Shown here piece by piece: positions 31,269 to 50,123 of a stretch of DNA of 64,000 nucleotides (positions are counted from its first letter, which is position 1; the number at the start of each line of letters is the position of its first letter). The stretch is from an uncultured Nitrospira sp. Lineage in GTDB: Bacteria; Nitrospirota; Nitrospiria; Nitrospirales; Nitrospiraceae. The notes under the pieces are model-generated. The model made no database searches. It saw nothing but the letters and a program-made list of their open reading frames with translations, and had not been told where the DNA came from. The translations under genes and the position numbers were made by a program. The stretch spans positions 1 to 64,000 of the forward strand of contig CABVRZ010000013.1 of assembly GCA_902500775.1 (NCBI GenBank), written 5' to 3'.

Positions 31269-31873
31269 TCGACCTGGTCAATCTGTTTATCAAAGCGGTC
31301 TTCGTCGAGAACCTTGCGCTGACGTTTTTTCTCGGCATGTGCACGTTTCTCGCCGTTTCGAAAAAAATCAGCACGGCGCTCGGACTCGGTATCGCGGTGG
31401 TCGTCGTCCAAAGTCTGACCATCCCGATCAATAATCTGATCTACCGATTTCTGATCCGTGACGGCGCGCTGTCATGGGCGGGGCTCTCCGAGATGAGTCT
31501 GGATTTCCTTGGGCTCATCACCTACATCAGCGTCATTGCGGCGGTCGTACAGGTCCTGGAAATGTTTCTCGACCGATACGTCCCGTCTCTGTACAACTCG
31601 CTGGGGATCTTTTTGCCGCTGATTACCGTCAATTGTGCCATTCTCGGGGGCTGTCTGTTTATGGTCGAACGTGACTATACCTTCAGCGAGAGTGTCACCT
31701 ACGGGGTGGGGTCCGGTGCCGGATGGGCGCTTGCGATCGTGGCAATGGCAGGGGTGCGTGAGAAACTCAAGTATTCCGACATACCCGAAGGGTTGCAGGG
31801 ACTGGGCGTCACATTCATCACCGCAGGATTGATGGCCCTGGGGTTCATGGCCTTTTCCGGCATTCAACTCTAG
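31265..31873 (+). CDS. nqrE: Na+-NQR subunit E
   Basis: 202 residues, six membrane helices, homologous to NqrD with inverted topology. The conserved Cys lies in [13 protein letters not shown]. The stop codon TAG at 31871-31873 is the centre of CTAG, followed at once by CAGGTTGCGGAAAAC, the same kind of terminus as the repeat elements in this window. The gene therefore appears complete but its 3' edge adjoins an insertion. Confidence 0.95.
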
Positions 31874-31948
31874 CAGGTTGCGGAAAACTCTTTTGACCAG
31901 GTAGCACTACGCGATGACCGAGCGCCTTACCCTGACTCAAGAACGCCC

Positions 31949-32076
31949 GCAGGATGCTCAAAATGGCCGCCGGCAAGGCCGCAGCGAGCGAAGAGGCGAG
32001 GCATACTCTGCACCGTATGTTGAGCCTCTGAGCGATGCGAGAACAATGGCGGCGGACTTTTTCGGCATCCTGTTAA
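31949..32076. repeat. intergenic repeat inside the nqr operon
   Basis: Between nqrE and nqrF, where a few bases would be expected, there are 222 bases. GCAGGATGCTCAAAA on the left and, reversed from the right, ACAGGATGCCGAAAAAGTCC are inverted ends. The interior blocks AAGGCCGCAGCGAGCGA and TTGAGCCTCTGAGCGATG match the copy at 8672-8911. It must be transcribed with the operon and could fold into a hairpin affecting nqrF expression. Confidence 0.75.
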
Positions 32077-32095
32077 GTCTGATGAGGGGCCACGT

Positions 32096-33316
32096 ATGAT
32101 CGAGATCATACTGGGAGTCAGTGTGTTCACCGGGTTCGTTCTCATTCTCGTCGTCTTCATTCTGAGTGCGCGTTCAAAACTGGTGGCGAGCGGCAACGTC
32201 ACGATCACGATCAACGACAAGAAGTTTATCGAGACGCCGATCGGAGGCAAGTTGCTCGGCGCGCTCGGCGACGCGAAGATTTTTGTCAGCTCCGCCTGCG
32301 GCGGCGGTGGCACGTGTGGGGTGTGCCGGGTCAAGGTTTTCGAAGGAGGCGGGGTCATTCTGCCGACCGAAACCTCACATATCAACAAGCGTGAAGCACG
32401 CGAAGGGTACCGTCTGTCCTGTCAGGTGGCGGTCAAGCAGGACATGAAGATCGAGGTTCCAGACGAGGTGTTCGGGGTCAAGAAATGGGAATGTACCGTC
32501 CGCTCGAACCACAATGTGGCCACCTTCATCAAGGAACTGGTCCTGGAGCTTCCGCAGGATGAATCTGTCGATTTCCGTGCCGGAGGCTACATCCAGATTT
32601 TCTGTCCACCGTACGAGCACTCGTTTAAGGATTTTGATATCGAAGAACGATATCGCAGTGACTGGGACCGGCTGAAACTCTGGGAGCTTGTTTCAAAGGT
32701 TAATGAATCCCTCGAGCGCGCCTACTCCATGGCCAATTACCCTGAGGAACGTGGCATCATTATGCTCAATGTTCGCATTGCCACGCCCCCACCGCGCACG
32801 CAAAATCTGCCTCCAGGTAAAATGTCATCCTACCTATTCGGACTGAAACCTGGCGACAAGGTCACCATCTCCGGGCCGTTCGGCGAGTTCTTTGCGCGTG
32901 ATACCAACAACGAAATGGTGTTTATCGGCGGTGGTGCCGGGATGGCGCCCATGCGTTCACATATTTTCGATCAGCTGAGTCGCCTCGAGACTACACGCAA
33001 GATGTCCTTCTGGTACGGAGCTCGATCGAAGCGCGAGATGTTCTATGTCGACGATTTCAACAAGCTGGCCGCAGCGCACGACAACTTCAAGTGGCATGTC
33101 GCCCTGTCCGACCCACTCCCCGATGACAAATGGAGCGGCTATACCGGCTTCATCCATAGTGTGCTCTATAATGAGTACCTGAAGACCCATCCGGCTCCTG
33201 AAGACTGTGAGTACTACCTCTGCGGACCGCCGATGATGAATGCCGCCGTGATCAAGATGCTGTTGGATCTGGGTGTTGAGCGGGAAAACATCATGCTCGA
33301 TGACTTCGGAGACTGA
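32096..33316 (+). CDS. nqrF: Na+-NQR subunit F (NADH dehydrogenase, 2Fe-2S, FAD)
   Basis: 406 residues. One N-terminal helix is followed by a plant-type [2Fe-2S] domain with Cys68, Cys74, Cys77 ([12 protein letters not shown]) and Cys109 (RLSCQV). The FAD domain has [10 protein letters not shown] and the NADH domain [21 protein letters not shown] and YLCGPPMMN. NqrF oxidises NADH on the cytoplasmic side and passes electrons into the complex. The ribosome binding site is GAGG near 32085. The final residues LDDFGD are conserved in the family. Confidence 0.96.
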
Positions 33317-33322
33317 CCATCC

Positions 33323-34378
33323 ATGCATCCATCCATTCCTCGCCCTCGCGCGCTCATGGCCTTGATCGCTCTGCTGGCTGCCGGTGCCGGCTTGGGTCTA
33401 CTGCGCCCTGAGCCGCCTGTCGCAGAACTGCACATGAGTGGCCGAACCATGGGAACCACCTATAACGTGAAATACCGCCCTACCCAGAACACTCCACCGC
33501 TGAAGTCGATGCAACTCGAAGTGGACGCCTTGCTGGCCGAGATCAATCACACCATGTCCACCTACGACCCGGAATCGGAACTGTCGCGTTTGAACCGTCT
33601 GCACACCACCGACTGGGTGCCCGCATCCGCTTCGCTGCGCGCTGTGCTCAAGGCCGCGCTCGAGGTCGGCGTCCAGAGTGAAGGAGCGTTTGACATCACA
33701 GTCGGTCCCCTAGTGAATCTCTGGGGCTTTGGCCCGGAGGTGCATCCGGACCGCATCCCGCTTGAGGCCGACATCGCCGCAGCGCGTGCGCGCAGCGGGC
33801 TTGATAAAGTCACACTCAGTGAGACGCAACCGGCGATACGCAAGCACCATCCTGATGTATTCTTAGATCTTTCAGGGATCGCCAAAGGGTATGGGGTGGA
33901 CCGGGTTGCTGAACTCATGACCGCGCGTGGCATTGAGCATTATATGGTTGAGATCGGCGGCGAGATACGGGTACATGGGTTCAAGGAGCATGAGACGCTC
34001 TGGCGGATCGCGATTGAGAAGCCGCTGTCGGGCGAACGTTCGGTGCACACGATGCTGGCGCTTAGTGACATCGCGCTCGCCACCTCGGGCAATTATCGAA
34101 ACTTTTTTGAGATCGATGGGCGGCGCTATTCCCATACCATCGATCCGACAACCGGCTGGCCGGTCGATAATCATCTGGTGTCGGTGACCGTGCTGGCGGA
34201 GACCAGCATGCGAGCCGATGCCTGGGCCACCGCGTTTCAGGTGTTGGGACCCGAGCGTGCCATGGCCATCGCCGAACGGCTCAATCTTCCCGTCCTCTTC
34301 GTCATCGAACGGGATGGACAATTTGAAGAACGCGCCTGCTGTTCCTTCCAACGGTACCGGAAACAGGAGCTGTCATGA
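33323..34378 (+). CDS. apbE: FAD:protein FMN transferase ApbE
   Basis: 351 residues with a lipoprotein-like or anchor N-terminus (ALMALIALLAAGAGLGLL, no lipobox Cys seen). Motifs include MGTTYNVKY, DPESELSRLN, DLSGIAKGYGVDR, EIGGEIRV, and the metal-binding ATSGNYRNFFEIDGRRYSH/IDP. ApbE transfers FMN from FAD to the Thr of NqrB and NqrC in the periplasm. It overlaps the next gene by 4 bases. Confidence 0.95.
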   Translation: MHPSIPRPRALMALIALLAAGAGLGLLRPEPPVAELHMSGRTMGTTYNVKYRPTQNTPPLKSMQLEVDALLAEINHTMSTYDPESELSRLNRLHTTDWVPASASLRAVLKAALEVGVQSEGAFDITVGPLVNLWGFGPEVHPDRIPLEADIAAARARSGLDKVTLSETQPAIRKHHPDVFLDLSGIAKGYGVDRVAELMTARGIEHYMVEIGGEIRVHGFKEHETLWRIAIEKPLSGERSVHTMLALSDIALATSGNYRNFFEIDGRRYSHTIDPTTGWPVDNHLVSVTVLAETSMRADAWATAFQVLGPERAMAIAERLNLPVLFVIERDGQFEERACCSFQRYRKQELS

Positions 34379-35822: not shown

Positions 35823-37241
35823 ATGGAGAGCGTCATCCGACTTGAAGAACAGAAGATTCCATCGACGCGCACGGGCATCGGTTCGCGGCTGGGCATCGCC
35901 GGAGCCGCGTTCTGGTTCGCCGCGCCGCTCGCGGTTGCGGCGGCTGAGCCGTTGGGTGCTGCGGCAGCCGACTCACCCACCGTGTTTGGCATCCCGCTCG
36001 ACTTCATCTTGTTCGCCCTCACGCTGCTCGGTGTCGCGCTGTTCCACCACCACACGCTGCGGGTGGCACTCACCGGACTCGCCACGATTGCGTTGTATAA
36101 ATTGGCGTTCACCGGGTTCAAGACCGGCGATGGCCTACCAGGCTTGGTCAACCACCTGGCCCATGAGTGGGTGATTCTTTCCAATCTGCTGTGCCTGTTG
36201 CTGGGCTTTGCGTTGCTGTCCAAACATTTCGAGGAAAGCCATGTTCCTTCGGTGCTGCCAAAGTACCTACCGGGACAAGCAAAGGGTGCGTTCGCACTGC
36301 TCGCAATGGTGTTCGTGCTGTCCTCCTTTCTCGATAACATCGCCGCAGCGCTGATCGGGGGCACAATGGCACACACCGTCTTTCGCGGCAAGGTCCACAT
36401 CGGTTACCTCGCCGCGATTGTCGCCGCCTCCAATGCGGGTGGTTCGGGCAGCGTGGTGGGCGACACTACGACTACAATGATGTGGATCGACGGGGTGAGT
36501 CCGGCCGATGTCTTCCACGCGTACGTCGCCGCAGTGGTCGCACTGGTCCTATTCGGTATTCCGGCCGCATGGCAGCAGAACAAGTTTTCGCCGTTGATGG
36601 CCTATAAGCCCGGTGGCGCGCATGTGGACTGGGGCCGCGTCGGTGTTGTGGCGTTCATTTTGGTGGTGGCGATTTCCACCAACGTGTACATCAACTTGAG
36701 GCACGCCGAGATCGCCGATCATTTCCCATTCATCGGCGTGGCCGTTGCACTGGCGATCCTGGTCTCGGCACCATTCCGCACACCGGATTGGAGTCTGTTA
36801 CCCGACGCAACCAAAGGGACGATTTTTCTGCTCGCACTGGTCACCTGCGCCTCCATGATGCCGGTGGAAAAATTGCCGGTCGCATCCTGGCAATCGGCCA
36901 TGGGGCTTGGTTTCATCTCCGCGGTGTTCGACAACATCCCCCTCACCGCGCTCGCGCTGAAACAAGGCGGTTATGACTGGGGCATGCTCGCCTACACGGT
37001 GGGGTTCGGCGGCTCGATGATCTGGTTCGGCTCGTCAGCCGGCGTGGCGTTGTCCAACATGTATCCGGATGCGAGGAACGTCGGTCGCTGGGTGTATCAC
37101 GGCTGGCATGTCGCGGTGGCGTATGTCATCAGCTTTCTTGTGCTGCTCGCGGTCATGGACTGGCACCCCAGTCCTAAACGAGGCGACCAGCCAGTCACAA
37201 CGTCTTCGGTTGCACAACCAGCCGAGGCACCGGCGCACTAG
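35823..37241 (+). CDS. NhaD/ArsB-superfamily Na+/H+ antiporter-like permease
   Basis: 472 residues with about 11-12 membrane helices. The two half-domains each have an unwound acidic motif: SSFLDNIAAALIGGTMAH and SAVFDNIPLTALAL. These correspond to the DN motifs of the ion-transporter superfamily that includes NhaD and ArsB. ASNAGGSGSVVGDTTTTMMW is the first-half substrate loop. Export of sodium, or citrate/anion transport, are both possible; sodium/proton exchange is favoured because of the motif form and the NQR operon nearby. The gene is unusually rich in G+C third positions and is bracketed by direct repeats, suggesting acquisition as a unit. Confidence 0.8.
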   Translation: MESVIRLEEQKIPSTRTGIGSRLGIAGAAFWFAAPLAVAAAEPLGAAAADSPTVFGIPLDFILFALTLLGVALFHHHTLRVALTGLATIALYKLAFTGFKTGDGLPGLVNHLAHEWVILSNLLCLLLGFALLSKHFEESHVPSVLPKYLPGQAKGAFALLAMVFVLSSFLDNIAAALIGGTMAHTVFRGKVHIGYLAAIVAASNAGGSGSVVGDTTTTMMWIDGVSPADVFHAYVAAVVALVLFGIPAAWQQNKFSPLMAYKPGGAHVDWGRVGVVAFILVVAISTNVYINLRHAEIADHFPFIGVAVALAILVSAPFRTPDWSLLPDATKGTIFLLALVTCASMMPVEKLPVASWQSAMGLGFISAVFDNIPLTALALKQGGYDWGMLAYTVGFGGSMIWFGSSAGVALSNMYPDARNVGRWVYHGWHVAVAYVISFLVLLAVMDWHPSPKRGDQPVTTSSVAQPAEAPAH

Positions 37242-37281: not shown

Positions 37282-37340
37282 GGGATAGGCTTCGAACCAC
37301 GACCCCTAGATCCACAATCCAGAGTCCGCTACCGCGCTCC
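37282..37340 (-). other. tRNA-His-like remnant (possible attachment-site scar)
   Basis: On the minus strand the sequence includes CTGGATTGTGGATCTAG, an anticodon arm with anticodon GTG, followed by GTCGTGGTTCGAAGCC like a T-arm. The 5' acceptor half is missing and the T-stem pairs poorly, so it is not a functional tRNA. It overlaps the last codons and stop of the DUF2294 gene. Such 3' tRNA scars are usual attachment sites of integrating elements. Confidence 0.4.
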
Positions 37341-37673
37341 GTTCTGCAGTTCTCGATCCGTCGTAAAGACGAACACTCGTTCCCCTAGCTGCACGTCGAT
37401 ATCGGTAAAGAGACCGAGGATCTTCGCTCCGGTAATCTCACCAATCTGTTCGCAGAGCTTGTCACGCCCTTGGGCAATCAGGTTCTGTCGCAGGCGCTTG
37501 ACCATTTCGATACCCTCCGTGGTCTTCGCCAGTTGGCGCTCGGCCGGTGTTAAGACACCCTTGAGCCGCACCACGACCAGATCGCGTGCGACCAGCGCAC
37601 GGACTTCGTCAGGGCCACGCCCTAGAAACTCCTGCTCAAACTTAATGATGGCATTACGAATCGAATTTTCCAT
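37329..37673 (-). CDS. DUF2294 family protein, 114 aa
   Basis: The N-terminus MENSIRNAIIKFEQEFLGRGP, the middle VVVRLKGVLTPAERQLAKTTEG and the C-terminus DIDVQLGERVFVFTTDRELQ match the Na-translocating-decarboxylase-linked DUF2294 family of small cytosolic proteins with unknown function. The start is supported by AGGAAG upstream. It is divergent from the dab operon, with 376 bases between them. Partial copies of its 3' end lie at 26109-26185 and 35547-35650. Confidence 0.8.
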   Translation of the reverse strand: MENSIRNAIIKFEQEFLGRGPDEVRALVARDLVVVRLKGVLTPAERQLAKTTEGIEMVKRLRQNLIAQGRDKLCEQIGEITGAKILGLFTDIDVQLGERVFVFTTDRELQNGAR

Positions 37674-37712
37674 GTCTGTATTCTTCCTAATTATAGGTGT
37701 CTGTCCCGTGTA

Positions 37713-37748
37713 GGAACAAGTCCAATCCTAGGTCTTTTGTCTTGTTCC
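37713..37748. promoter_or_regulatory. 8-bp dyad GGAACAAG...CTTGTTCC in the divergent region
   Basis: GGAACAAG at 37713-37720 and CTTGTTCC at 37741-37748 are exact inverted repeats separated by 20 bases. The dyad lies 40 bases upstream of the DUF2294 start and 300 bases upstream of dabB. It may be an operator for one or both, or a terminator-like hairpin on either strand. Confidence 0.4.
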
Positions 37749-37969
37749 GTGAGTGAGTACTGAGCCTTTCGGCCCTGCTGACTGGAGAAGAACGAACTGA
37801 ACGACTATTTCGAGCTTGACGCTATACGGTGCCCCATATTATTGATGATGCCACCTTTTTGTGACAAGGCAGTGTTGCCGCTCTTACAATTCGTACGGAG
37901 AGGCAAAACGGCTTTTGTCGGAGGCCGTAGGGCGACCAGCAGTTCATTTTGAAAGGCCGGTCGCAGTAC

Positions 37970-38017
37970 AAGCCAACCGAACGGGTCTCGACCACGCGTC
38001 GAGCGGGCGGTTGGCTT
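37970..38017 (+). promoter_or_regulatory. terminator-like hairpin in the dab leader (possible attenuator)
   Basis: AAGCCAACCG at 37970-37979 pairs perfectly with CGGTTGGCTT at 38008-38017, and inside it CTCGA (37987-37991) pairs with TCGAG (37999-38003). A T-rich stretch (TCGTATTTT) follows. The hairpin ends 32 bases before the first dab start codon, so a transcript from upstream must pass it. That placement is usual for attenuators or riboswitch expression platforms. A frame continuous with dabB runs through it, so translation is an alternative explanation. Confidence 0.5.
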
Positions 38018-38049
38018 TCGTATTTTATGAGTCCTTTTTAGAGGTAATG

Positions 38050-39750
38050 ATGTCGGCTGTGTTGCTTGTGCCGCTCCTCCCGCTGATTGCCGCGCTGATC
38101 GTGAGTCTCGGCAGCGAGGCCACACGCCAGGCTCGCGCAAAAATCGCCGCCTGGCCGTTCGGCGTGGCCTTCTGCGGCGCCATTGCCACGCTATACGTGG
38201 TAGCCACGGAAGGCCCGATTGAGCTTCGACTCTACGATCCAGGGGCGTCCACCGTATTGGCCGTGCCGATCGGTCTCTACGTCGACCGGCTGAGCACGGT
38301 CATGATGGTGCTGATCTCCGGTATCGGCACGATCATTTACACCTACTCCGTCGAGTATATGTACCAAGATGTGCACGAACGCCGATATCTCGCCTTGATC
38401 GGGCTCACCGTGAGCGTTCTCCTCTGCATGGTATCCAGCGCAAATCTCTTGATGCTATTCATGCTGTGGCAGCTGCTGAGTTACCTCCTCTATCTCCTTG
38501 TCCATAATCATGGCCACCAAGAAACGCTGAAGAGCGCGTTCCGCACCTTCACGCTGTTGCGGGTCGGCGATATTGCCTTCTTGGGCGGGACCGTGCTGGC
38601 ATACTCACTGTACGGCACGCTGGAATTTCCCGATCTGTTTGCCGTCGCCGCCCGATCGACGGCGACCGTGTCCCTGTTCCCCGGTGTTGAGTTCGACGGC
38701 GCGACGGCCGTGACCTTGCTGCTCCTTGTCGGCGGCATGAGCAAGTCGGCTCAATTCCCCCTTCATGGTTGGCTGCCTCGGTATCTCTATGCCCCGACGT
38801 CCGTGACCGCCCTCCTGCATGCCGGCATCATCAATGCGGCAGGTTTTCTCATCAACCGTCTGGCGCCGCTCTTCGGGATGAGCTCGACCACGTTGCACAT
38901 CGCTCTTATCATCGGCACAGTGACGGCCGTCCTCGGCGCCACGATGATGTTGGTGCAAAACGACATCAAGAACATGCTCGGCTTTTCGACGATCGGCCAG
39001 ATGGGGTACATGATCATGGAATGCGGCTTGGGCGCCTTTTCGCTGGCCGTGTTCCATCTGATTGCGCATGGACTCTTCAAGGCTACGGTGTTTTTATACA
39101 GTGGAAATGTCATTCACAAGGCAAGACAAGAACCGCACGTCCCGCATTCTGGACATCAGGCAGAGGAAGAGAGTTACTCACCGCTGACTTGGACGACGGG
39201 ATTTTTCACGACCCTGCTGATTCCCTTGCTGATCTTGCTGGCAACTCACGGGGTGTTACAAATCCCTCTGTTGGAATCCCAAGGTACCGTCATCTTTCTC
39301 TTTTTCATCTGGATCACGTCGTCTCAGGCGATTCTAACGCTGACGCGATTGCGCGCCGTCGCCTCATGGAAGGTCTCCGCCGCCATGCTGGTGACGCTCT
39401 TGTTCATCGTATTCGTCTATCTGTTTGCCGTTGAATCGTTCACGGCATTCCTCTACCCTGACTCGAACGAAGTCGCATCGTACTTCAAGGCCGCCGATCT
39501 CCCCGATTGGCTCTTTGACCTCCTTCTCACGCTCTCGACATCGGTAACGATTGCCGGCTGGATCTATCTCTATATGCGGGCTCATGGCCGGACCGTCTGG
39601 ACGCCACCATGGATCGACGGACTTCGGATTCGGCTCTACGTGCTGTTCGTGAATCGACTCTATGTGGACGCAGTCTTATATCGCGTGGGCCACATCTTGA
39701 CATCCGTCATTCAACGCATGGATAAACGCGCACAAGAACGCTCACTGTGA
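38050..39750 (+). CDS. dabB: DabB-type NuoL-like proton-channel subunit, first copy
   Basis: 566 residues from the ATG at 38050, which follows GAGG; the frame is open upstream to 37861 but without membrane-protein character. About 14-15 membrane helices. The Proton_antipo_M domain has GGMSKSAQFPLHGWLP, a Lys in the helix (MSKSAQFP), HAGIINAAGFLINR, and NDIKNMLGFSTIGQMGYM. DabB is the ion-conducting half of the DAB inorganic-carbon concentrating complex with DabA. The operon also carries a close paralogue and a third NuoM/N-like subunit. FSTIGQMGYM and HGLFKATVF show it is the DabB branch of the NuoL family. Confidence 0.88.
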   Translation: MSAVLLVPLLPLIAALIVSLGSEATRQARAKIAAWPFGVAFCGAIATLYVVATEGPIELRLYDPGASTVLAVPIGLYVDRLSTVMMVLISGIGTIIYTYSVEYMYQDVHERRYLALIGLTVSVLLCMVSSANLLMLFMLWQLLSYLLYLLVHNHGHQETLKSAFRTFTLLRVGDIAFLGGTVLAYSLYGTLEFPDLFAVAARSTATVSLFPGVEFDGATAVTLLLLVGGMSKSAQFPLHGWLPRYLYAPTSVTALLHAGIINAAGFLINRLAPLFGMSSTTLHIALIIGTVTAVLGATMMLVQNDIKNMLGFSTIGQMGYMIMECGLGAFSLAVFHLIAHGLFKATVFLYSGNVIHKARQEPHVPHSGHQAEEESYSPLTWTTGFFTTLLIPLLILLATHGVLQIPLLESQGTVIFLFFIWITSSQAILTLTRLRAVASWKVSAAMLVTLLFIVFVYLFAVESFTAFLYPDSNEVASYFKAADLPDWLFDLLLTLSTSVTIAGWIYLYMRAHGRTVWTPPWIDGLRIRLYVLFVNRLYVDAVLYRVGHILTSVIQRMDKRAQERSL

Positions 39751-39876
39751 CCGATGCCAGCTTGACGAATGTAGAGACCCCGTATTAATGGTTAGCCTTC
39801 CAGCAGCGGCAAGAGAGGTGCTCATTGCCTGACGAAGAGGAAGACGCATAGGCTTGATAACCATCTGGTAGATGAC

Positions 39877-41583
39877 ATGCTCTTGTCGCTGGTTCTTATC
39901 GTCCCCTGTCTCCTCTTGGTCGCCGCCGGCATCGTGATGATCGGCAGGGAGACGCCACGGTTCATCCACGCGAAGTTGGCCGCCTACCCCATCGGCCTGG
40001 CATTCTTAGGCGCCATCGGCACGCTGATCCTCGTCACATCGCAGGGCCCTGTCACCGTTCGATTGTATGATCCGTCCTCCGTCGCATCCTTCATTATTCC
40101 CCTCGGGTTCTACGTCGATCGGCTGAGTGCGGTCATGATGACATTGATCACGGGTGTCAGCACCATCATTTACTGCTACTCAACCCGCTACATGTACCAG
40201 GACCGTCATGCGCGCCGATATCTGGTGCTGATTTGCCTCACCGACTTCGTCTTGATCTGCATGGTCTCGAGTGGAAACCTCATGATGCTGTTTCTTTTTT
40301 GGCAGATCCTGAGCTACCTGCTGTATCTACTTGCCCACAACCACATCCACCCTGCGACGTTGGCTGGCGCGTTCAAGACTTTTACATTGTTGCGGATCGC
40401 CGACACGGCATTTCTGGGCGGCATTGCCCTCGCCTATCAACTCTACGGCACGCTTGAATTCCACGAACTGTTCGCCAGGGCGGCGGCCACTTCCATGACG
40501 CTCTCGATTCTGCCCGGAATAGACGTGAGCGGCACTACCGCTGTGACCTTCTTTCTGTTTATCGGTGCGATGGGGAAATCCGCGCAGTTTCCGTTGCATC
40601 TGTGGCTACCAGGATCACTGTTCGCCCCCACGCCGGTTCACGCCTTGCTGCACGCCGGCATCATCAATGCGGGAGGCTTTCTCATCAACCGTCTCGCCCC
40701 GCTCTTTGGACTGAGCTCAACTACCCTACACATCGCCTTCGTCATCGGCACACTGACGGCCGTTCTCGGCGCCACGATGATGCTGGCGCAAAACGACATC
40801 AAGAAGACGCTCGGCTTCTCGACGATCGGCCAAATGGGCTACATGATCATGGAATGCGGCTTAGGCGCCTTTTCGCTGGCCGTGTTCCATCTGATTGCGC
40901 ATGGACTCTTCAAGGCCACGGTGTTCCTCAACTGTGGGAATGTCATCCATAAGGCGCGACAGGAGCCGCACGTCCCCCATACGAACCATGAGGATGAGGA
41001 GGCAGGATTCTCCCGCCTGACCTGGTCAACCGGGTTTGTGACGACCCTGTTTATTCCGCTGTTGATCCTGCTGATCACGCATGGCGTGCTGCGCATTCCA
41101 TTGCTAGAATCTCAAGGAACCGTTATCATTCTCTTTTTTATCTGGATCACGTCGTCCCAGGCGATCCTGACGCTGACGCGATTGCGCGCCGTCGCCTCGT
41201 GGAAGGTCTCCACTGCCATGCTGTTGACACTCCTCTTCACCGTGTTCGTCTATCTGTTCGCCGTTGAGTCCTTCACCGCATTCCTCTACCCGGACCCGAA
41301 CGAAGTGACGTCGTATTTCAAGGCCGCCCATCTCCCGGACTGGCTTTTTGACGTTATCGTCGTGATGGCCTCGCTCATGACAATCTTCGGCTGGACCTAT
41401 CTTTATCTGCGTGCCCACGGTCGGAGCATCTGGATACCGACCTGGATTGAGAACCTGCGAATTCGACTGTATACGGTATTCCTGAATCGGCTGTATGCCG
41501 ATGAACTCTATCAACTGATCGGTTCGACGACCACGCACCTGGTTCACCGAATCGACAAGCTGGAACGCGGGTGGTCCCGATGA
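39877..41583 (+). CDS. dabB: DabB-type NuoL-like subunit, second copy
   Basis: 568 residues, colinear with the preceding gene over its whole length. Conserved segments include GAMGKSAQFPLHLWLPG, HAGIINAGGFLINR and NDIKKTLGFSTIGQMGYM. Some segments are almost identical in DNA to the first copy, especially 40835-40925 against 39001-39090. It is separated by 126 bases from the first copy and overlaps the next gene by 4 bases (ATGA). Two adjacent DabB copies suggest two different complexes, or a hetero-assembly on one DabA. Confidence 0.88.
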   Translation: MLLSLVLIVPCLLLVAAGIVMIGRETPRFIHAKLAAYPIGLAFLGAIGTLILVTSQGPVTVRLYDPSSVASFIIPLGFYVDRLSAVMMTLITGVSTIIYCYSTRYMYQDRHARRYLVLICLTDFVLICMVSSGNLMMLFLFWQILSYLLYLLAHNHIHPATLAGAFKTFTLLRIADTAFLGGIALAYQLYGTLEFHELFARAAATSMTLSILPGIDVSGTTAVTFFLFIGAMGKSAQFPLHLWLPGSLFAPTPVHALLHAGIINAGGFLINRLAPLFGLSSTTLHIAFVIGTLTAVLGATMMLAQNDIKKTLGFSTIGQMGYMIMECGLGAFSLAVFHLIAHGLFKATVFLNCGNVIHKARQEPHVPHTNHEDEEAGFSRLTWSTGFVTTLFIPLLILLITHGVLRIPLLESQGTVIILFFIWITSSQAILTLTRLRAVASWKVSTAMLLTLLFTVFVYLFAVESFTAFLYPDPNEVTSYFKAAHLPDWLFDVIVVMASLMTIFGWTYLYLRAHGRSIWIPTWIENLRIRLYTVFLNRLYADELYQLIGSTTTHLVHRIDKLERGWSR

Positions 41584-42893
41584 TCGACCTATTCATACCC
41601 TGGCTGTTCGTCGGCATGCCGTTCGCGGGTGCACTCATCTGTTTGGCTGTGTGGTCCGATCCCTACCGCGTGAAGATGATGGCAATCATCTGTTCCATCA
41701 TCAACTTCGTGTCGATCGTCGCAGCAGCCAGCCTGATTCCGATTGCAACGACGTCTGACGGTCTCTTACCGCTCTATGTGCTGCCGATCGCCGCCGTGGT
41801 GTCCATAATAGGCCAGCCGGTTCATGAACAGCATCGGCTCTCCTGGACCATGATCTTGGTCTTTCTCGGGTTGGGGATGGGTGTGCTCACCACCGGGAAT
41901 TCGTTCGGCGCGTTGTGTCTGATCGCGCTCATGCTGATCATCATGTTCCTCCTGTACCGTCATCACACGACGCTCTGGCCCATTTCCTGGCGGGGTATCG
42001 GTTCCTTCGCCGTTGGTGTCGTCGGCGCAAGCCTGTCTCTTGTGGCGGAACCACCCATCGCGTCGGTGGCCTCCTTGGCGACCTATGCCGTGCTGTTGCC
42101 GCTCATGCCCCTTCATGACGGATATCTCACGGCGCTGACCAGGCTGCCGGGAAGCTTACCGCCGTTCATCGTGGTGCTGCTGCCGGTGCTCGGCCTTCAC
42201 GGATTGGCGACCGTCATGCCGACGATGCCGAATGAATTCGTGGGGATCGTCAGCTTCATGGCCTTGCTGAGTTCGCTGTACGGCGCGATCAAGGCGTTGG
42301 CTCAGTCACGTGTCCGGCTGTTGCTCGGCTATGGCAGTGTCTCGTTTTTTTCGATCCTCTGGTGGTTTGTGGCCGGGGCTCACCAGGCGACACCGCGCGC
42401 GGCGGTGTTGGCCGGAGCCGTCGGCCTCGCGATCGGCGGACTCTTGGTTGCCTGGCAGGTGATTCGCACGAGATACGGCGACGATGTGGATCCGCAGGCC
42501 ATCAGTGGCCTGGCAGCGGCCATGCCGAAATATGCGGTCCTTTTTTCCCTGTTGGGCCTTGCGGCGATGGGACTCCCGCCTTTCGGAGTGTTCGCGGGAT
42601 TCATGGGACTGCTGCTGACCACACCACCCGCGTCGACCATCGGCCTGTTCATCGCGCTCACGGCGTGGCTTGCCGCTTCGTGGTATATCATGCAGATGGT
42701 GCAACAGTTGCTCTTCGGCACGCGCCGACCGGATTTGCGCTATGCCGATCTCCGACATCCTGAATTTACGTCGCTATTGATCGTGGTGCTCACCTTGCTG
42801 GTGCTAGGATTGGCGCCGACCAGCTTGTATGCCCCGGATCAGGCGGCACCGACGACCACCGTTTTGGAGCGATCACTCGCATGGACCCGCTGA
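41580..42893 (+). CDS. NuoM/NuoN-like proton-conducting membrane subunit
   Basis: 437 residues, about 12-14 membrane helices. It has antiporter-type signatures in weaker form: LMPLHDGYLTALTRLPG, LAQSRVRLLLGYGSVSF and GLPPFGVFAGFMGLL. It is shorter and more divergent than the two DabB proteins and lacks the Lys-Ser-Ala-Gln segment of NuoL. The ATG at 41580 overlaps the preceding TGA; the gene overlaps dabA by 13 bases. Such an extra subunit is not part of the two-gene DAB systems and could add an ion path to the complex. Confidence 0.85.
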   Translation: MIDLFIPWLFVGMPFAGALICLAVWSDPYRVKMMAIICSIINFVSIVAAASLIPIATTSDGLLPLYVLPIAAVVSIIGQPVHEQHRLSWTMILVFLGLGMGVLTTGNSFGALCLIALMLIIMFLLYRHHTTLWPISWRGIGSFAVGVVGASLSLVAEPPIASVASLATYAVLLPLMPLHDGYLTALTRLPGSLPPFIVVLLPVLGLHGLATVMPTMPNEFVGIVSFMALLSSLYGAIKALAQSRVRLLLGYGSVSFFSILWWFVAGAHQATPRAAVLAGAVGLAIGGLLVAWQVIRTRYGDDVDPQAISGLAAAMPKYAVLFSLLGLAAMGLPPFGVFAGFMGLLLTTPPASTIGLFIALTAWLAASWYIMQMVQQLLFGTRRPDLRYADLRHPEFTSLLIVVLTLLVLGLAPTSLYAPDQAAPTTTVLERSLAWTR

Positions 42894-45800
42894 CGCACGA
42901 GACCGATATTGAATCCAGTCGAATGGAATTGCGCGGGATCGTCCGCCTTGCAGGGGAAGTCATTGCGCAGTACTGGCCGATGCGGACCTTCGTCCACCAT
43001 AATCCCTTGCACAGTATCGAATATTTGCCCTTCGAAGAAGCCGTCAAGCGTGGAAAGCAGTTCATGGGGGGTAACGGCTATCTACCCAGCCATCTGTATC
43101 GAGCCTATCTCCAGACTGATCGAATTCGCTTAACTCACATCGAGGATGCGCTGAAACCGCGAATCATCGACAAACACGTGCCGATTGGACCGCATACCGT
43201 CTCGCATGGCTCGGTCTTGCGCGCCTGCTTGGTTGATGGTTTGTGTGCTCCAGCCCTAGAACCGCTCGACCATCAGCTTGAAGATCCCGACAAATCGTTG
43301 ATCGACGCACTCACCTCCAAACTGGAACCGGTCTTTCTGCCTTTTTCATTGGAGGATCGCGTCCGTAAAGTTGTGGATGAGAACCAGGCTGCCCTGTGCC
43401 GATGGCTCACGCTGTCGCACTGGTGCGACGATACGCTCGGCACACAGATCGTCCAGCAGATCAACGAGCAGATGATCAAATGGTGCGGCGCGTTCCTGGA
43501 CGAAGGTCACGCCACCTGGGTGATGCCGGGACGTGAAAAAGGCCTGTACGAAGCCTGGCGGGCGATGGCCTCCCACGAATGGTCCCCCTGTGGGATCAAG
43601 AAGAGTGGCAAGAAGATTGCGCAACTGCCGGACTATCCCGAAGATGCGCTCCGCGAGAGTTTGGACGCGCTAGGGATTCCCTCCGAGCTGCTACAAGATT
43701 ACCTGTCGTTGCAATTGACGGCACTGCCCGGCTGGGCCGGATTCATCAAGTGGCGCGGAGAGGAACGTGAGTATTCCTGGCAGCAAGCTCATCCGGTCGG
43801 CCTGGTTAAGTTTTTGGCGATTCGTCTCTGGTACGCACGTGAATTGGTTCAACAGGCGTGCAAAGACCATCTTGGCATCGACGGACGCTACGAGGCCGTG
43901 ACGGCTTACATGCGCGACTATCCTGAAGAGTATTATCTCCGACGGCAGCGGGCAGCCGGGCGATTGCCCGCCCTCTATGCTGAAGAAGTCGATCGACTCT
44001 CGCATCGAAAAGGACAAAGCTGGAATAATGTCCTCACCCGGTACCGTACCGACGTCATTCCTCGGCTGCAAGCAGCCGTTCGCCGTGGGGCCGCACGCCG
44101 ATTGCTCGCCTTGGCCCATTCATTGACCATCGACGCACAGGCCCTTCTTGAAAGCTCCCCTGCGGACCTGAAGCACGTCATCGACTGGATGGAAGCGTTC
44201 CCCGAATCGGATCATGGCCCGGTCTGGCTCACGGCTCTAGAGGCAGGTTACCAGGAACAATTGCTGACGACCTTGCGAGCGCGTCACGTGGAATCCGTTC
44301 CCTCTGAGACAACGCGTCCGTACTCTCAGTCTGTCTACTGTATCGATGTGCGATCCGAACCGTTCCGTCGCCATCTGGAATCGGTCGGCCCGCATGAGAC
44401 CTATGGCTTCGCCGGATTTTTTGCCGCCTTTATCCGCTATCGGGCCTGGGGAAAGGAACATGATACGGAACAGTTCCCCGCAATCATGCGAGCAAAGAAT
44501 GAGGTGCGGGAAATCCCGCGCAGCTATCTCGATCATAAGGTCTCGCTGCACGCGGCTCGAGCCAAGTGGGTGCAGGCAGGGCATACGCTCTTGCATGATC
44601 TGAAAGAAAATGTGGTCACCCCCTATGTCATGGTGGAATCACTAGGCTGGTTTTACGGGCTGCCGATTTTCGGCAAAACATTGATCCCGACGCTCTATCA
44701 CCGCTGGACCGCCTGGTTGCGACGCCTGTTCGTTCCGTCACTGGCCACCACGCTGACAATCGACAAATTGGCGCCGGGTGAAACCGACGAGATGCTCGCT
44801 GCGGAACAGCACACCGTGATCAGAGAAGCCTTGCATGAACACTTTGGACTTCGCAGCTCCCGTATCACGCCGTCCTTTACTGAAGGGTTACGTCAGCGCG
44901 CGTTGACCGTGGAGGGCGACTCAGAACCGCCGATCACGGCTGAAGAAATCGAGCGGGTCGGACTCACGCCGGAAGCCATCACCACGTTTATTGAGACCCT
45001 GCGACGGCAATACGATCTGACGGCGCGGTCCGCATCACGCCATAAAGAACGGCTGACCAGAACCGGGTTCACGGTAGAAGAGCAAGCCCTGACCGTCGAC
45101 ACTGCGCTTCGCATGATGGGGCTGACGAAGAATTTCGCACGGCTCGTTCTTTTCTGCGCCCACGGGAGTACGTCGGACAACAATCCCTATGAGTCCGCTC
45201 TTGATTGCGGGGCCTGTGGCGGCAATGAGGGCAAACCCAATGCGCGTACGCTCGCGATGATGGCGAACAATCCCACCGTTCGCAAGCGACTGGCCAAACT
45301 ACGGATCGACATCCCATCCGATACACATTTCTTGGCCGGACAGATGGATACAACGACCGACGCCGTGCAGCTCTTCGACTTAGAAGACGTGCCGCCGACC
45401 CACCGAGTCGATCTGCTTCGACTTCAGAAAGACCTCAAAGACGCATCCAGGCTGACAAGCCAGGAACGCTGTGCACGCTTTCCTGATATTCAGCAGGCGC
45501 TCTCGGAGACGAGAGCCGAAGCGCACGTCCGTAGACGGAGCGTCGACTGGAGCCAAGTCAGGCCGGAGTGGGGCCTGTCGAACAATACGTCGTTCTTGAT
45601 CGGGCGACGGGAACTGACGAAAGGGTTGGATCTGGAGGGACGTGTCTTTCTACACTCATACAATTATCGCGAAGATCCGAGCAATCGACTGCTCGAAGTG
45701 TTGCTCACGGCCCCACAGGTCGTGGCGCAGTGGATCAACATGGAACACTATTTCTCCGCCGTCGACAACGACGTGTACGGCAGCGGAAGCAAGATCTACC

Positions 45801-46099
45801 ACAATGTCGTCGGTCGGCTCGGTATCATGTCCGGCCCCTGGAGCGATCTCCGGCTTGGACTGGCCCGACAAACCGTCATGAACAGCGAGGCGCCCTACCA
45901 TGAGCCGATGCGGTTGCTGACCATCGTAGAGACGCCTCGTGCCCGGATCGAGAAATTGATTGCGCGGCATGAGGTTTTACAGCACTTCTATCATAACCAG
46001 TGGGTTCATCTTGTCGCGCTCGATCCTGAAAACGGGGGCTGGTATCGATATCATCCGAATGGAGTATGGAGCGTCATAGAGCCGTCGTCGCAGCCGTGA
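42881..46099 (+). CDS. dabA: DabA, inorganic carbon-concentrating zinc protein (DUF2309)
   Basis: 1072 residues. The zinc and catalytic set of beta-carbonic-anhydrase-like DabA is visible: Cys487-x-Asp489-x-Arg (YCIDVRSE), His761 (FCAHGS) and Cys776 (LDCGACGG). The His-to-Cys spacing of 15 is that of the studied DabA of Halothiobacillus. VHHNPLHSIEYLPFEEAVKR near the N-terminus is a family hallmark. DabA converts CO2 to bicarbonate at the inner face of the membrane, driven by the ion gradient through DabB. It overlaps the preceding membrane gene by 13 bases, confirming one operon. Confidence 0.94.
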   Translation: MDPLTHETDIESSRMELRGIVRLAGEVIAQYWPMRTFVHHNPLHSIEYLPFEEAVKRGKQFMGGNGYLPSHLYRAYLQTDRIRLTHIEDALKPRIIDKHVPIGPHTVSHGSVLRACLVDGLCAPALEPLDHQLEDPDKSLIDALTSKLEPVFLPFSLEDRVRKVVDENQAALCRWLTLSHWCDDTLGTQIVQQINEQMIKWCGAFLDEGHATWVMPGREKGLYEAWRAMASHEWSPCGIKKSGKKIAQLPDYPEDALRESLDALGIPSELLQDYLSLQLTALPGWAGFIKWRGEEREYSWQQAHPVGLVKFLAIRLWYARELVQQACKDHLGIDGRYEAVTAYMRDYPEEYYLRRQRAAGRLPALYAEEVDRLSHRKGQSWNNVLTRYRTDVIPRLQAAVRRGAARRLLALAHSLTIDAQALLESSPADLKHVIDWMEAFPESDHGPVWLTALEAGYQEQLLTTLRARHVESVPSETTRPYSQSVYCIDVRSEPFRRHLESVGPHETYGFAGFFAAFIRYRAWGKEHDTEQFPAIMRAKNEVREIPRSYLDHKVSLHAARAKWVQAGHTLLHDLKENVVTPYVMVESLGWFYGLPIFGKTLIPTLYHRWTAWLRRLFVPSLATTLTIDKLAPGETDEMLAAEQHTVIREALHEHFGLRSSRITPSFTEGLRQRALTVEGDSEPPITAEEIERVGLTPEAITTFIETLRRQYDLTARSASRHKERLTRTGFTVEEQALTVDTALRMMGLTKNFARLVLFCAHGSTSDNNPYESALDCGACGGNEGKPNARTLAMMANNPTVRKRLAKLRIDIPSDTHFLAGQMDTTTDAVQLFDLEDVPPTHRVDLLRLQKDLKDASRLTSQERCARFPDIQQALSETRAEAHVRRRSVDWSQVRPEWGLSNNTSFLIGRRELTKGLDLEGRVFLHSYNYREDPSNRLLEVLLTAPQVVAQWINMEHYFSAVDNDVYGSGSKIYHNVVGRLGIMSGPWSDLRLGLARQTVMNSEAPYHEPMRLLTIVETPRARIEKLIARHEVLQHFYHNQWVHLVALDPENGGWYRYHPNGVWSVIEPSSQP

Positions 46100-46139
46100 C
46101 AGACCTGCACAGACTACACGTGAAGAAAGGAGTGCGCTG

Positions 46140-46478
46140 ATGGGACTGAGCTTGCATCCGATGAAAGAAATTCGAGTGATCATCGCGGGAGAACACCGCT
46201 CCTTCGTTACCGATCTACTGGATCGAGTCAAAGCGTCCGGCTACACGATTATCGGCAATATCTCCGGAAAGGGTCACCACGGTGTCCGCGAGGCCCACTT
46301 TATGTTCAGCGAGCAGGAAAGCCTCGAAATGATTCTCACGGTCGTGCCGGAAGACAAAGTCGAGCCGATTCTCGCCGGACTGCGGCCACTGTTCGAGCGC
46401 CATTCCGGCTTTATGTATGTCGCGGATGTGGCTGTCGGCCGACAAGAATACTTTGGGAAGAAGGGCGGCAAATCATGA
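46140..46478 (+). CDS. PII-like signal protein of the dab operon
   Basis: 112 residues with PII-type fold: strands MKEIRVIIAGEH and DKVEPILAGLRPLF, a loop NISGKGHHGVREAHF with the glycine-rich ligand motif, and a C-terminal strand FMYVADVAVGRQEYF. Related PII-like proteins accompany bicarbonate transporters and carboxysomes and bind adenine nucleotides or bicarbonate. It starts 40 bases after dabA, with AGGAG upstream. It could report energy or bicarbonate state to the Dab complex; no Tyr uridylylation site was seen. Confidence 0.85.
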   Translation: MGLSLHPMKEIRVIIAGEHRSFVTDLLDRVKASGYTIIGNISGKGHHGVREAHFMFSEQESLEMILTVVPEDKVEPILAGLRPLFERHSGFMYVADVAVGRQEYFGKKGGKS

Positions 46479-46520
46479 TAACGGGCACGTGTGTGGACAC
46501 AAAAGCATCATCCCAGACCT

Positions 46521-46545
46521 AGCATTGTCACCTCGTAACAATGCT
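46521..46545 (+). terminator. probable terminator of the dab operon
   Basis: AGCATTGT (46521-46528) pairs with ACAATGCT (46538-46545), an 8-bp stem with a 9-base loop. It is followed by GTCTCGTTCT, which is only weakly T-rich. It lies 43 bases after the PII-like stop codon and before the convergent regulator genes. Confidence 0.45.
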
Positions 46546-46712: not shown

Positions 46713-48095
46713 TCAGTTGTACTTTTTCAATCGTCGATCTAACGAAAACCGTGTGAGACCCAGCTGTTTAGCAGCGAGACTCTTGTTGTAGTCCGCTAAC
46801 CGTAAGGTTTCTTCGATAATCGACTCCTCGATTTGCTCAAGCGTTTGTTTCCCGACTTGCATTTCGACACGGATCAATCGTTCTTGTCCGACCGATACGG
46901 AAGTGGTTGTCTGTTTCACCGTCTCGTGCAATTCGCGAGGGAGATAATCGGCCGTCAATACATGCCCGGAGCAAAAGATCATGGCCCGTTCAATAATATT
47001 TTCGAGTTCCCGAATATTCCCCGGGTAGTGATAGCGCTCTAAGGTCAACCGTGTCTCGGCATCAAGTTCCGGAACCGGCTTACCGAACTCATGGGCAAAC
47101 CGCACCATGGTCCGCTGACAAAGTGGAATGATGTCTTCGACTCGTTTACGAAGGGGCGGGATTTCAAAGGTCACGACATTGAGTCGAAAGTAAAGATCTT
47201 CTCGAAACTGCCCATGTTCTACATCTTTTTTGATTTCCCGATTTGTCGCCGTAATGAGGCGGAAATCGACACCCAGATCGTCGGTGCTTCCCAGTCTCCG
47301 AAACGAACGCTCTTGGATCACCCGCAGCAACTTGGCCTGCATCGACATATCCAAATCGCCGATTTCATCGAGGAACAGGGTACCTCCCTCTGCCTTTTCC
47401 AAGAGACCTAATTTTCGCTGATTGGCGCCCGTAAAGGCTCCTCGCTCATATCCGAATAACTCGCTTTCAAACAGGTCCTTGGGAATGGCGGTGCAATTGA
47501 CCCCTACAAAGGGGCCGCCCGATCTCTGTCCATTGTGGTGGATGACTCTCGCCAGGAATTCTTTCCCTGTCCCTGTTTCACCCAGCAACATGACAGAGGA
47601 CTTAGGATTCTCGGCTACGCCTTGAACCTGCTCTAATAAGTGTTTCATCGCTGGGCTGTGCGCTTCGAGACTACTCAGGTGAAACTGATTGGCCTGCCCG
47701 CTGAGCTCCGCTTCCAGACGGCGCCGAAGCTTCAGCATATCGATCGCCCGACCGGTGACGGCATCGAGTCCTTCAAGATCGACTGTCTTGATCAGGAAGT
47801 CATAGGCCCCCAACTTCATCGCGTCTACAGCATCTTGCACTGATCCATAGGCCGTTAACATGATCACCAGGGCTGCGGGAGCGAGGTGACGGATATGTTT
47901 GAGCGCCTCCAGGCCGCTCATACCGGACATTTTGAGATCAAGAAGCACAAGATCGGGGTGCGTGTGTTGGAGACTTTCCATCAAGGCTTCGCCGGATTCG
48001 TACCCGACAGCTGCATGGCCCTGTCTGGCCAGACGCTTGACGATCGCCGTGCGAATGACATGCTCATCGTCCGTCACAAATACTGTTGCGCGCAT
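46713..48095 (-). CDS. NtrC-family sigma-54 response regulator
   Basis: 460 residues. Receiver domain 1-120 with LVLLDLKMSGMSGLE and LTAYGSV; AAA+ domain about 145-380 with Walker A GETGTGKE, the sigma-54 contact loop ERGAFTGAN, Walker B LFLDEIGD and the Arg finger REDLYFRLNVV; Fis-type helix-turn-helix at the end (RLADYNKSLAAKQLGLTRFSLDRR). All parts needed for a sigma-54 activator are intact. It starts 3 bases after the kinase stop. It is the third gene of a minus-strand trio, and likely targets have -24/-12 promoters. Confidence 0.95.
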   Translation of the reverse strand: MRATVFVTDDEHVIRTAIVKRLARQGHAAVGYESGEALMESLQHTHPDLVLLDLKMSGMSGLEALKHIRHLAPAALVIMLTAYGSVQDAVDAMKLGAYDFLIKTVDLEGLDAVTGRAIDMLKLRRRLEAELSGQANQFHLSSLEAHSPAMKHLLEQVQGVAENPKSSVMLLGETGTGKEFLARVIHHNGQRSGGPFVGVNCTAIPKDLFESELFGYERGAFTGANQRKLGLLEKAEGGTLFLDEIGDLDMSMQAKLLRVIQERSFRRLGSTDDLGVDFRLITATNREIKKDVEHGQFREDLYFRLNVVTFEIPPLRKRVEDIIPLCQRTMVRFAHEFGKPVPELDAETRLTLERYHYPGNIRELENIIERAMIFCSGHVLTADYLPRELHETVKQTTTSVSVGQERLIRVEMQVGKQTLEQIEESIIEETLRLADYNKSLAAKQLGLTRFSLDRRLKKYN

Positions 48096-48098
48096 TGA

Positions 48099-50123
48099 TC
48101 AACCCTTCGTTGAGACCGGTTCTTGCTCGAGCGGCATCCAGATACCGAGAATCGTTCCTTTTCCTATCTCGCTACTGGCGTAAATGTCTCCCCCATGTGC
48201 CTCTATGATATTCCTGCAAATTGCGAGCCCCAATCCGGTCCCTGTACGTTTCCCAGAAGTGACGAACGGCTGAAAGATCTGTCCGATCAGCTCCTGCGAA
48301 ATTCCATGTCCGGCATCTTTTATTTGAATCAGGATACCTGGCCGTTCTTCTCGGAATAATTCATCCGCGGTGATTTGGATAGGCGAACCTCCATCGGGGG
48401 TTGCTTCCAATGCATTGTGCACTACGTTCAGGAGTACTTGTCTCAGTTGGTCACGATCCGCATGAATCTCACTGATCATGGGTGAGAGGCTGGTCTTGAC
48501 AGAGAGATGTCTCTGTTCCAATTGCACCTTCAGCAGGTTTCCCACTTCATCGACCAGTTGGATGAGATCGACTCGAGTCGGAGCAATGCGGCGAACCCGC
48601 GCAAAGTCCACGATTTCATTGACGATGCGATCCAACCGCCGTGTTTCCGATAGGATCACCTCGACCTCTTTTCGCTTCGCATCGGCCGGCTCGAAGTCAT
48701 CCAACAACCCTTTGGCCGTCGAACCGATTCCAACCAATGGGTTTCTGAGCTCATGGGCGATACCTGCCGCGACCTGACCCAATGTCGCCAAGTTTTCCGC
48801 CCGACTCAACCGTACCTGCAGGCTTTCGAGGGCCGTAATATCAATATTGAAACCCACATAGACAATATCGGAAGACTCTAGATCCATGATGGGAACATGT
48901 CGGCTTAAGATCTTGCGTACGTTGCCGTCTTCATGGACAAATCGGAAAATCGTTTCGCACGGTCGACCTTCCGCTACAGCTTGGGCAAAGGTCATCAGAA
49001 CCTGACCGCGGTCAGCGGGATGAATGCGTTGGAGGAATGTGGTGGGCGCAACCTCCTTCTCAGGGTCAAGGCCTGCTAACTGCTGATTGTATCGATTGCT
49101 GACAGTGACCTTCACACCTTTCGTGATGACGATGCCGACCGGAGCGTGGTCCACCAATCCTCGATACTTTGCTTCCGAGGCGGACAAGGATGCATTCAAT
49201 TTTTTGAGTGAATACTCGGAGTGTTGGAGTTCTTCCACATCTTGACGGATCCGTTCGCTCATTACCTCCATAACCTTTGTCAGCTCCCCGATTTCGTCTT
49301 TGCGCTCTAGTGCCGGAATATTGGGAATCGCTTCCCCGGTCTCCGAGCTCACGGCCTTGGATAATTCGACGAGCGGAGCCACGATTGATTTGGCGATGGC
49401 AGCGAGGCCTAGAGTAATGAGCGCGAGGGTCACGACCCCACCGGTCAGTATGATGAAGATGGTTCGAATCTCATCGTAGTTCAACGCAGACAGTTCCCGT
49501 TGCGTCGTTTGCTGTTCCATTTCCTCAAAGCGCCTCATCCAGGTGCGAATCTCAATCATGATTTCTCGGCTTTTCCCCTCTTGAATGTACCGAATAGCCT
49601 CAGACGAGGATCCCGCATTGATCGCCTCAACAAATTCTTCTTTTTCTGTAACCGATTTAGTGACTGCTTTTTGCAGTTCCCTGAATTGTTGGTTTTCCTC
49701 TTGTGGAAGTTTTCCGACCAGTTCTTGTTCGAAAGCAGAGAGCGTTGCTCTTCTTTGTTTAAATCCTTCGAAGTAGTTGCTGTCACGGGTGATTGCATAC
49801 CCGAGAAATGCCGTCTCCAGATCGGCCACTGATCGCATGTACTGAGCCGCCGTCTTCTGAAGGAGGTAACGCTCGTTCAGGCGTTCTTCGTCGTGGAAAA
49901 ACGTGAGGACGTCCATCGAGAGCATCGCGCCTAATACGAGAAGGAAGAGCAACGGAACCGCAGGGATGAGAAGGAGCTTGGGAAGAATCGGAAGGTTATT
50001 GAGGAACTTGTAAAGGGTTTGCATGTGTGTGACCATTCTGCCGTGACGGGTTCCTACGAAAGACCATGCGACCAACCTTCGTGCAGGTAACTTTCCAGCG
50101 AAACCTCGACAAGCACTCCGCAC
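48099..50123 (-). CDS. membrane sensor histidine kinase (CHASE3-like, HAMP, PAS)
   Basis: 674 residues. Two membrane helices (LLLIPAVPLLFLLVLGAML and IIFLTGGVVTLALITLGLA) enclose a helical periplasmic domain with AAQYMRSVADLETAFLGY, the CHASE3-like pattern. A HAMP linker, one PAS domain (KYRGLVDHAPVGIVITKG), the H-box GIAHELRNPLVGIG with the phospho-acceptor His, and ATPase motifs NALEAT, GTGLGLAICRNII follow. The GTG at 50123 is 10 bases after the upstream stop; ATG at 50036 (MVTHMQTL) would give a more usual N-terminus. It probably phosphorylates both neighbouring regulators. Confidence 0.92.
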   Translation of the reverse strand: MRSACRGFAGKLPARRLVAWSFVGTRHGRMVTHMQTLYKFLNNLPILPKLLLIPAVPLLFLLVLGAMLSMDVLTFFHDEERLNERYLLQKTAAQYMRSVADLETAFLGYAITRDSNYFEGFKQRRATLSAFEQELVGKLPQEENQQFRELQKAVTKSVTEKEEFVEAINAGSSSEAIRYIQEGKSREIMIEIRTWMRRFEEMEQQTTQRELSALNYDEIRTIFIILTGGVVTLALITLGLAAIAKSIVAPLVELSKAVSSETGEAIPNIPALERKDEIGELTKVMEVMSERIRQDVEELQHSEYSLKKLNASLSASEAKYRGLVDHAPVGIVITKGVKVTVSNRYNQQLAGLDPEKEVAPTTFLQRIHPADRGQVLMTFAQAVAEGRPCETIFRFVHEDGNVRKILSRHVPIMDLESSDIVYVGFNIDITALESLQVRLSRAENLATLGQVAAGIAHELRNPLVGIGSTAKGLLDDFEPADAKRKEVEVILSETRRLDRIVNEIVDFARVRRIAPTRVDLIQLVDEVGNLLKVQLEQRHLSVKTSLSPMISEIHADRDQLRQVLLNVVHNALEATPDGGSPIQITADELFREERPGILIQIKDAGHGISQELIGQIFQPFVTSGKRTGTGLGLAICRNIIEAHGGDIYASSEIGKGTILGIWMPLEQEPVSTKG

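Follow-up and report, generated by a model that had tools for sequence, protein, structure and literature searches.

A DAB1 operon with a tandem dabB duplication

The window analysed here is a stretch of 64,000 nucleotides from contig CABVRZ010000013.1 of an uncultured Nitrospira sp. (GCA_902500775.1), and the subject of this work is its DAB operon at 37674-46545. The locus consists of an mpsC-like gene, dabB1, dabB2, a gene for a third membrane subunit (M), dabA, and a gene for a PII-like protein, all but mpsC on the forward strand (Table 1). The host genome is a 4.53 Mb draft, 99.7% complete, with this dabA as its sole DabA gene, and the relatives used for comparison are spread across one phylum. 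Pfam confirms the gene content given in the initial annotation, with two paralogues of DabB that are both full-length (PF00361, 159 and 162 bits), a third, divergent protein of PF00361, DabA, and the PII-like protein encoded on the same strand. The description of a single run of overlapping genes holds for dabB2/M and M/dabA, the alternative M start (ATG 41580) sharing an ATGA with the stop of dabB2, but not for dabB1 and dabB2, which lie 126 nt apart, nor for dabA and the PII gene, separated by 40 nt. Since the gene order is kept over dozens of genomes, the arrangement is not due to chance. The divergent mpsC-family gene, just outside 37674-46545, belongs to the locus.

Table 1. Positions of the features of the DAB locus in the window
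Feature	Position	Strand	Remarks
mpsC-family gene	37329..37673	-	PF10057, Pfam 114 bits (cut-off 23); 114 aa; divergent to the operon
Shared divergent control region, mpsC/dabB1	37674..38049	.	Overlapping sigma-70-like matches on both strands, 37838-37890; consensus matches only
dabB1, 566 aa	38050..39750	+	PF00361/PF00662; sequence resembling a ribosome-binding site at the start
Thr253 codon of dabB1	38806..38808	+	Computed from the 38050 start; matches the Ser256 position of DabB2(Hneap)
dabB2, 568 aa	39877..41583	+	PF00361/PF00662
His255 codon of dabB2	40639..40641	+	Computed from the 39877 start; Ser256 position
Third subunit M	41571..42893	+	440 aa from GTG 41571, or 437 aa from ATG 41580
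dabA, long (DAB1) type, 1072 aa	42881..46099	+	PF10070, 881 bits
CPII-type PII-like regulator, 112 aa (predicted)	46140..46478	+	PF00543; PDB 5d4n/5d4l match

The locus represents the known DAB1 operon in its Nitrospirota form and is not an enlarged two-gene system. For comparison, DabA relatives were fetched from named genomes, mostly of Pseudomonadota and a few Aquificota. Nearly all complete DAB1 loci in this set, including that of a Halothiobacillus neapolitanus metagenome-assembled genome, display the order dabB, a membrane protein of about 250 aa, a long dabA, and PII. The same order is seen in the Pseudomonadota loci L098-L178, with homologous third subunits. The premise that characterised DAB systems are DabA plus one DabB was incomplete, as the H. 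neapolitanus DAB1 was expressed with an interstitial PF00361-type gene besides dabA1 and dabB1 (PMC7714395), and DAB1 is termed a three-subunit system in PMC13144422. The DAB1 systems of H. neapolitanus (Hneap_0907-0909), Nitrobacter, Thiobacillus, and Acidithiobacillus share with the present one the gene order, the zinc site, the finger Glu, the DabB path residues apart from the Ser256 position, and the homologous third subunit. In contrast, the Pseudomonadota loci examined have no tandem dabB duplicate and no adjoining mpsC (no PF10057 match), their third subunit is about 250 aa long rather than about 440, and Ser is found where the Nitrospirota copies have Thr or His. The Nitrobacter DAB1 also differs in adjoining RuBisCO and carboxysome genes; on plasmid 1 of Nitrobacter hamburgensis (L098, 9524-22329) two tandem copies of the entire DAB1 operon adjoin RuBisCO and CsoS2, a carboxysome shell gene. 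The tandem dabB duplication is the new element of this otherwise known operon type, and our literature search, which covered few subscription papers, found no paper on a two-dabB operon in Nitrospira.

Two other systems are informative. DAB2 of H. neapolitanus (PDB 9rd0) has the same DabA catalytic and finger residues and the same DabB cytoplasmic half-channel, but comprises two subunits only, with a shorter DabA, no M, no PII, and Ser256 in its DabB2. MpsABC of Staphylococcus aureus combines DabA and DabB homologues with an mpsC-family gene close by; however, mpsC is downstream and dispensable there, as opposed to divergent and upstream here, and neither M nor PII is reported in the S. aureus operon. 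In the Nitrospira genome, PF10057 has a single match, adjoining the DAB operon, and mpsC is divergent and upstream in 58 of the 63 assessable Nitrospirota operons, mostly within about 600 bp. A 2019 study saw no linkage of mpsC to DAB outside staphylococci. We treat mpsC as a lead only, outside the demonstrated pump.

The best and only PDB matches of the PII-like protein are 5d4n/5d4l (E 7e-34, 101 residues aligned gap-free), which we take to be CPII, the carboxysome-associated PII-like protein, and the operon PII is predicted to be of this type. The ligands of CPII are adenine nucleotides and bicarbonate. Genes for an NtrC-type response regulator and a PAS histidine kinase (46713-50123, reverse strand) lie beyond the PII gene, convergent with the operon, and are possible candidate regulators.

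DabA and the two DabB copies

DabA belongs to the DAB/DAC family, with a PF10070 match, a Cys2His zinc site, an Asp-Arg dyad, and a finger-like motif with Glu. Its zinc set was annotated correctly (Cys487, Asp489, His761, and Cys776, with a His-Cys spacing of 15 residues). Mapping on the DAB2 structure (9rd0 chain A) reveals that the dyad partner Arg491 and the tunnel residues R894, W897, and L899 are also kept, and in the alignment Glu586 of the single finger is the equivalent of Glu444 in DabA2. Replacement of the zinc and dyad residues by alanine impairs DAB2, and that of Glu444 abolishes its function (PMC13144422).

Several DabA variants were seen in other genomes. One Nitrospirota locus (L063, 3564-13557, reverse strand) has one dabB, M, two different tandem dabA genes, and PII, so that dabA is duplicated instead of dabB. 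In Nitrosomonas eutropha Nm 57 (L112), an operon of dabB, small subunit, dabA, and PII is followed by a second dabA-PII pair, with no dabB of its own between the two. Two loci (L073, 8893-13251; L077, 14820-19145) encode a DabA of ~1450 aa with a long insertion in the N-terminal third and the replacements Glu444 to Asp, Arg653 to Tyr, and Leu658 to His; a Pfam search of the L073 protein found no further domain. In the DAB1 loci of Thiohalocapsa, Halochromatium, and Thiocystis (L167, L170, L172, L173, L174), dabA appears as two consecutive open reading frames of about 170-340 and 910-970 aa, and is possibly genuinely split.

DabB1 and DabB2 are 70% identical, and their proton-path residues are intact (K232, H257, K307, S313, H336, H340, and K344 in DabB1; K234, H259, K309, S315, H338, H342, and K346 in DabB2). 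Of the NuoL-type cytoplasmic half-channel set (K235, S256, H260, K310, S316, H339, H343, and K347), both copies keep all but Ser256, which is Thr253 in DabB1 and His255 in DabB2. This position aligns with DabB2 Ser256 and NuoL Ser250, and the S256A mutation impairs DAB2. Among the Nitrospirota two-dabB operons, with the order first copy, second copy, M, dabA, and PII, all 35 first copies have Thr at this position and all 35 second copies have His. It is Ser in 73/73 Pseudomonadota DAB1 and 5/5 DAB2 DabBs, while the single-copy Nitrospirota DabBs have His (28), Thr (4), or Ser (2). Only three of about 568 positions are fixed differently between the copies (Y245/S247, T253/H255, and R564/W566), and two of these fall in the Ser256 region. 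Of 68 Nitrospirota operons with intact dabB, 34 were scored as two-copy and 34 as one-copy, the latter including L201, which was scored by a distance filter yet has two dabB.

In the block 240-300, codon sharing at identical residues is 0.57 between copies of one genome, 0.52 between orthologues, and 0.46 between copies across genomes, a modest difference that is not corrected for relatedness and is drawn from related, non-independent genomes. The pattern looks like gene conversion between the dabB copies; if the higher sharing within genomes has this origin, the Thr/His difference has been kept against conversion. In the DabB trees, the first copies form mostly one clade of 26 plus smaller ones and the second copies are scattered, which gives no clean duplication date. 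So few fixed differences, together with codon sharing suggestive of ongoing conversion, would suit a duplicate that serves mainly dosage or is recently redundant, the two copies being functionally equal. We nevertheless regard this as improbable, given that Thr and His are kept in all 35 operons at a position where substitution by Ala leads to loss of DAB2 activity and where Ser is invariable in the Pseudomonadota DAB1 and the DAB2 proteins sampled. The duplicated dabB is real and conserved, and it looks functionally diverged.

Both DabBs have a gap at the equivalents of NuoL K399/D400, the exit half-channel that the DabA finger replaces in DAB2. Given one finger per DabA and two DabBs missing these equivalents, one DabA would complete one DabB channel. 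In the region of transmembrane helix 12, DabB2 has a His402, also His in DabB1, that is His in 67/73 Pseudomonadota DAB1 DabBs and Arg in 6, and is absent in the five DAB2 DabBs and 9rd0. It is possibly an exit-path residue specific to DAB1.

The third membrane subunit

The Pfam match of M to PF00361 is limited to the C-terminal part (33.8 bits). The Nitrospirota M profile aligns with the full length of a profile built from the Pseudomonadota small subunits (hhalign, 99.4%, E 3e-21) and also with E. coli NuoM 226-492 (97.6%), the E-values of such single-pair profile comparisons being rough. With single sequences the match to the Nitrobacter small protein is weak (4.5 bits), and homology was accepted on the profile comparison. 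A tblastn search with M gave no match in plasmids. Because the DAB1 small subunits tested have no Pfam match, M serves as the bridge that identifies them. According to these profiles, M is a longer relative of the Hneap_0908-type small membrane subunit and a standard DAB1 part.

The AlphaFold model of M is good for residues 165-420, and modelled residues 153-423 align structurally with chains of ND4/NuoM (Z 23-26, about 267 residues), which suggests a fold like TM8-14 (transmembrane helices 8-14) of the complex I subunit NuoM (ND4). The N-terminal 150 residues are modelled with low confidence, and the N-terminal part is unaligned with NuoM. Contrary to NuoM, M lacks K234, K265, H322, H348, and E407. 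K234, K265, H348, and E407 are replaced in every M member covering them, and H322 survives only in a single distant member (L093); H241 is kept, and the E144 region is not alignable. M thus does not have the residues of a proton-conducting NuoM/MrpD subunit. It resembles a degenerate version of the C-terminal half of NuoM, a scaffold of the TM8-14 kind with no charged path. The third protein had been described as proton-channel-like, which is not borne out since the charged proton-path residues are gone, and their loss makes ion conduction by M unlikely. M was rejected as an ion channel on the same residues.

In three loci (L094, L240, and L177) DabB is naturally fused to M or to its small homologue, and the L094 fusion has a His-type DabB. 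Such fusions indicate that M would adjoin DabB in the complex.

Proposed coupling of the pump and its genomic setting

Gene content and its conservation, the intact residues, the fixed Thr/His difference, and the loss of the M path residues are read from the sequences themselves; we infer the coupling, the stoichiometry, the alternative pairing, and the regulation by CPII. The explanation that fits best, and to which we give somewhat better than even chances, is a DAB1-type membrane-energised vectorial carbonic anhydrase with two DabBs as alternative partners of DabA and a non-conducting M. Its core would be DabA, one DabB, and M, watched by the CPII-type nucleotide/bicarbonate sensor. The zinc site of DabA would hydrate incoming CO2, ions passing through DabB and the finger of DabA (Glu586) would drive and rectify this hydration, and bicarbonate would accumulate in an organism with a marker gene of the reverse tricarboxylic acid (TCA) cycle. 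M would be a neighbour of DabB2, serving as a spacer or in assembly and conducting no ions. The second DabB, a tandem duplicate, would replace the other copy in individual complexes instead of being added, and pairing of DabA with DabB1 (Thr) or DabB2 (His) would yield two versions of the pump with differing proton-path chemistry, suited for example to different pH or proton motive force.

By the finger argument, the two DabB copies would more probably substitute for each other as partners of DabA than supply one DabA with additional channels, and two alternative pumps are the simplest reading. Operons with one dabB are no rarer than those with two, so a single DabB seems to suffice. The initial annotation had proposed several ion-conducting subunits per DabA, allowing more than one ion per CO2; this is not supported, given the lost path residues of M and the one finger for two DabBs that both lack the NuoL K399/D400 equivalents. 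As the main alternative, DabB1 and DabB2 could sit in one larger complex, for example of two DabA, one DabB1, one DabB2, and M, with parallel, differing proton paths and an ion/CO2 ratio or control unlike DAB2. Complex-I-like antiporter subunits commonly assemble in rows, and the single apparent operon as well as the fixed difference at a path residue would agree with a joint assembly. However, about half of the related operons combine just one dabB with M, DabA, and PII of the same kind, and there is a single finger per DabA, so that we consider the joint complex rather unlikely.

Some points nonetheless weigh against alternative pairing. It carries over a structural argument made for DAB2, a system that lacks M, and a dimer of two DabA with one of each DabB satisfies the same finger argument. 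Both DabB copies could also be co-translated and present together. Furthermore, the AlphaFold model of the natural L177 fusion of DabB with the small subunit has a predicted TM-score of 0.55 and a predicted local distance difference test below 50 over much of 281-572. Built from a smaller alignment because a large mixed one misplaced the small subunits, it has low confidence at the junction and gave no interface information, and its Foldseek matches show the NuoL fold only. More tentatively, and with less than an even chance in our estimate, the locus may represent one CO2 pump whose two interchangeable or paired DabBs, kept different at Ser256, provide two energy-coupling modes, with a conserved mpsC-family partner gene outside staphylococci.

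Upstream of the DAB operon lie a complete nqrABCDEF-apbE operon for a Na+-translocating NADH:quinone reductase (27216-34378, forward strand), a Usp gene, and an NhaD-like antiporter gene (35823-37241). This nqr neighbourhood adjoins the DAB operon in L254-L257 and partly in L260, and is absent near most other sampled operons. The initial annotation had also suggested a choice between H+ and Na+. The paralogues do differ at one path position in a sodium-cycling neighbourhood, and a role of MpsABC in Na+ transport has been reported (PMC6689103), so one copy might serve Na+ and the other H+. Yet the same Na+ genes accompany one-dabB operons and are missing beside most two-dabB operons sampled, the Thr/His difference is no known Na+ site, and DAB2 behaves as proton-coupled, needing no Na+ and failing to rescue a Na+-sensitive strain (PMC13144422). 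A division of ions between the copies is therefore very unlikely. Linkage to Na+-NQR as the cause of the second dabB was ruled out, as it does not track with dabB copy number.

An ATP-citrate lyase domain is present in the genome, and RuBisCO is matched only weakly, by a 382-aa frame that is probably RuBisCO-like; the two findings fit a reverse-TCA organism, to whose carboxylases the pump would supply bicarbonate. The only beta-carbonic-anhydrase match of the genome (G000:C35:18505-18993, L250) is part of a 752-aa open frame that may encode a transporter fused to a carbonic anhydrase.

All statements on pump function derive from family membership. How ion flow is coupled to CO2 hydration in DAB complexes is an unsettled question, and these operons offer a natural experiment in which two paralogous channels share one DabA and differ at a path residue that DAB2 requires and where serine is otherwise nearly universal. 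From the same comparison, the third subunit of DAB1, so far poorly annotated, emerges as one half of a NuoM-type protein in degenerate form, with a role that is probably structural and not conducting, and the mpsC linkage offers a lead on a gene thought unrelated to DAB outside staphylococci. The bacteria are probably nitrifiers of the genus Nitrospira, so the pump may have a bearing on how carbon is fixed during nitrification.

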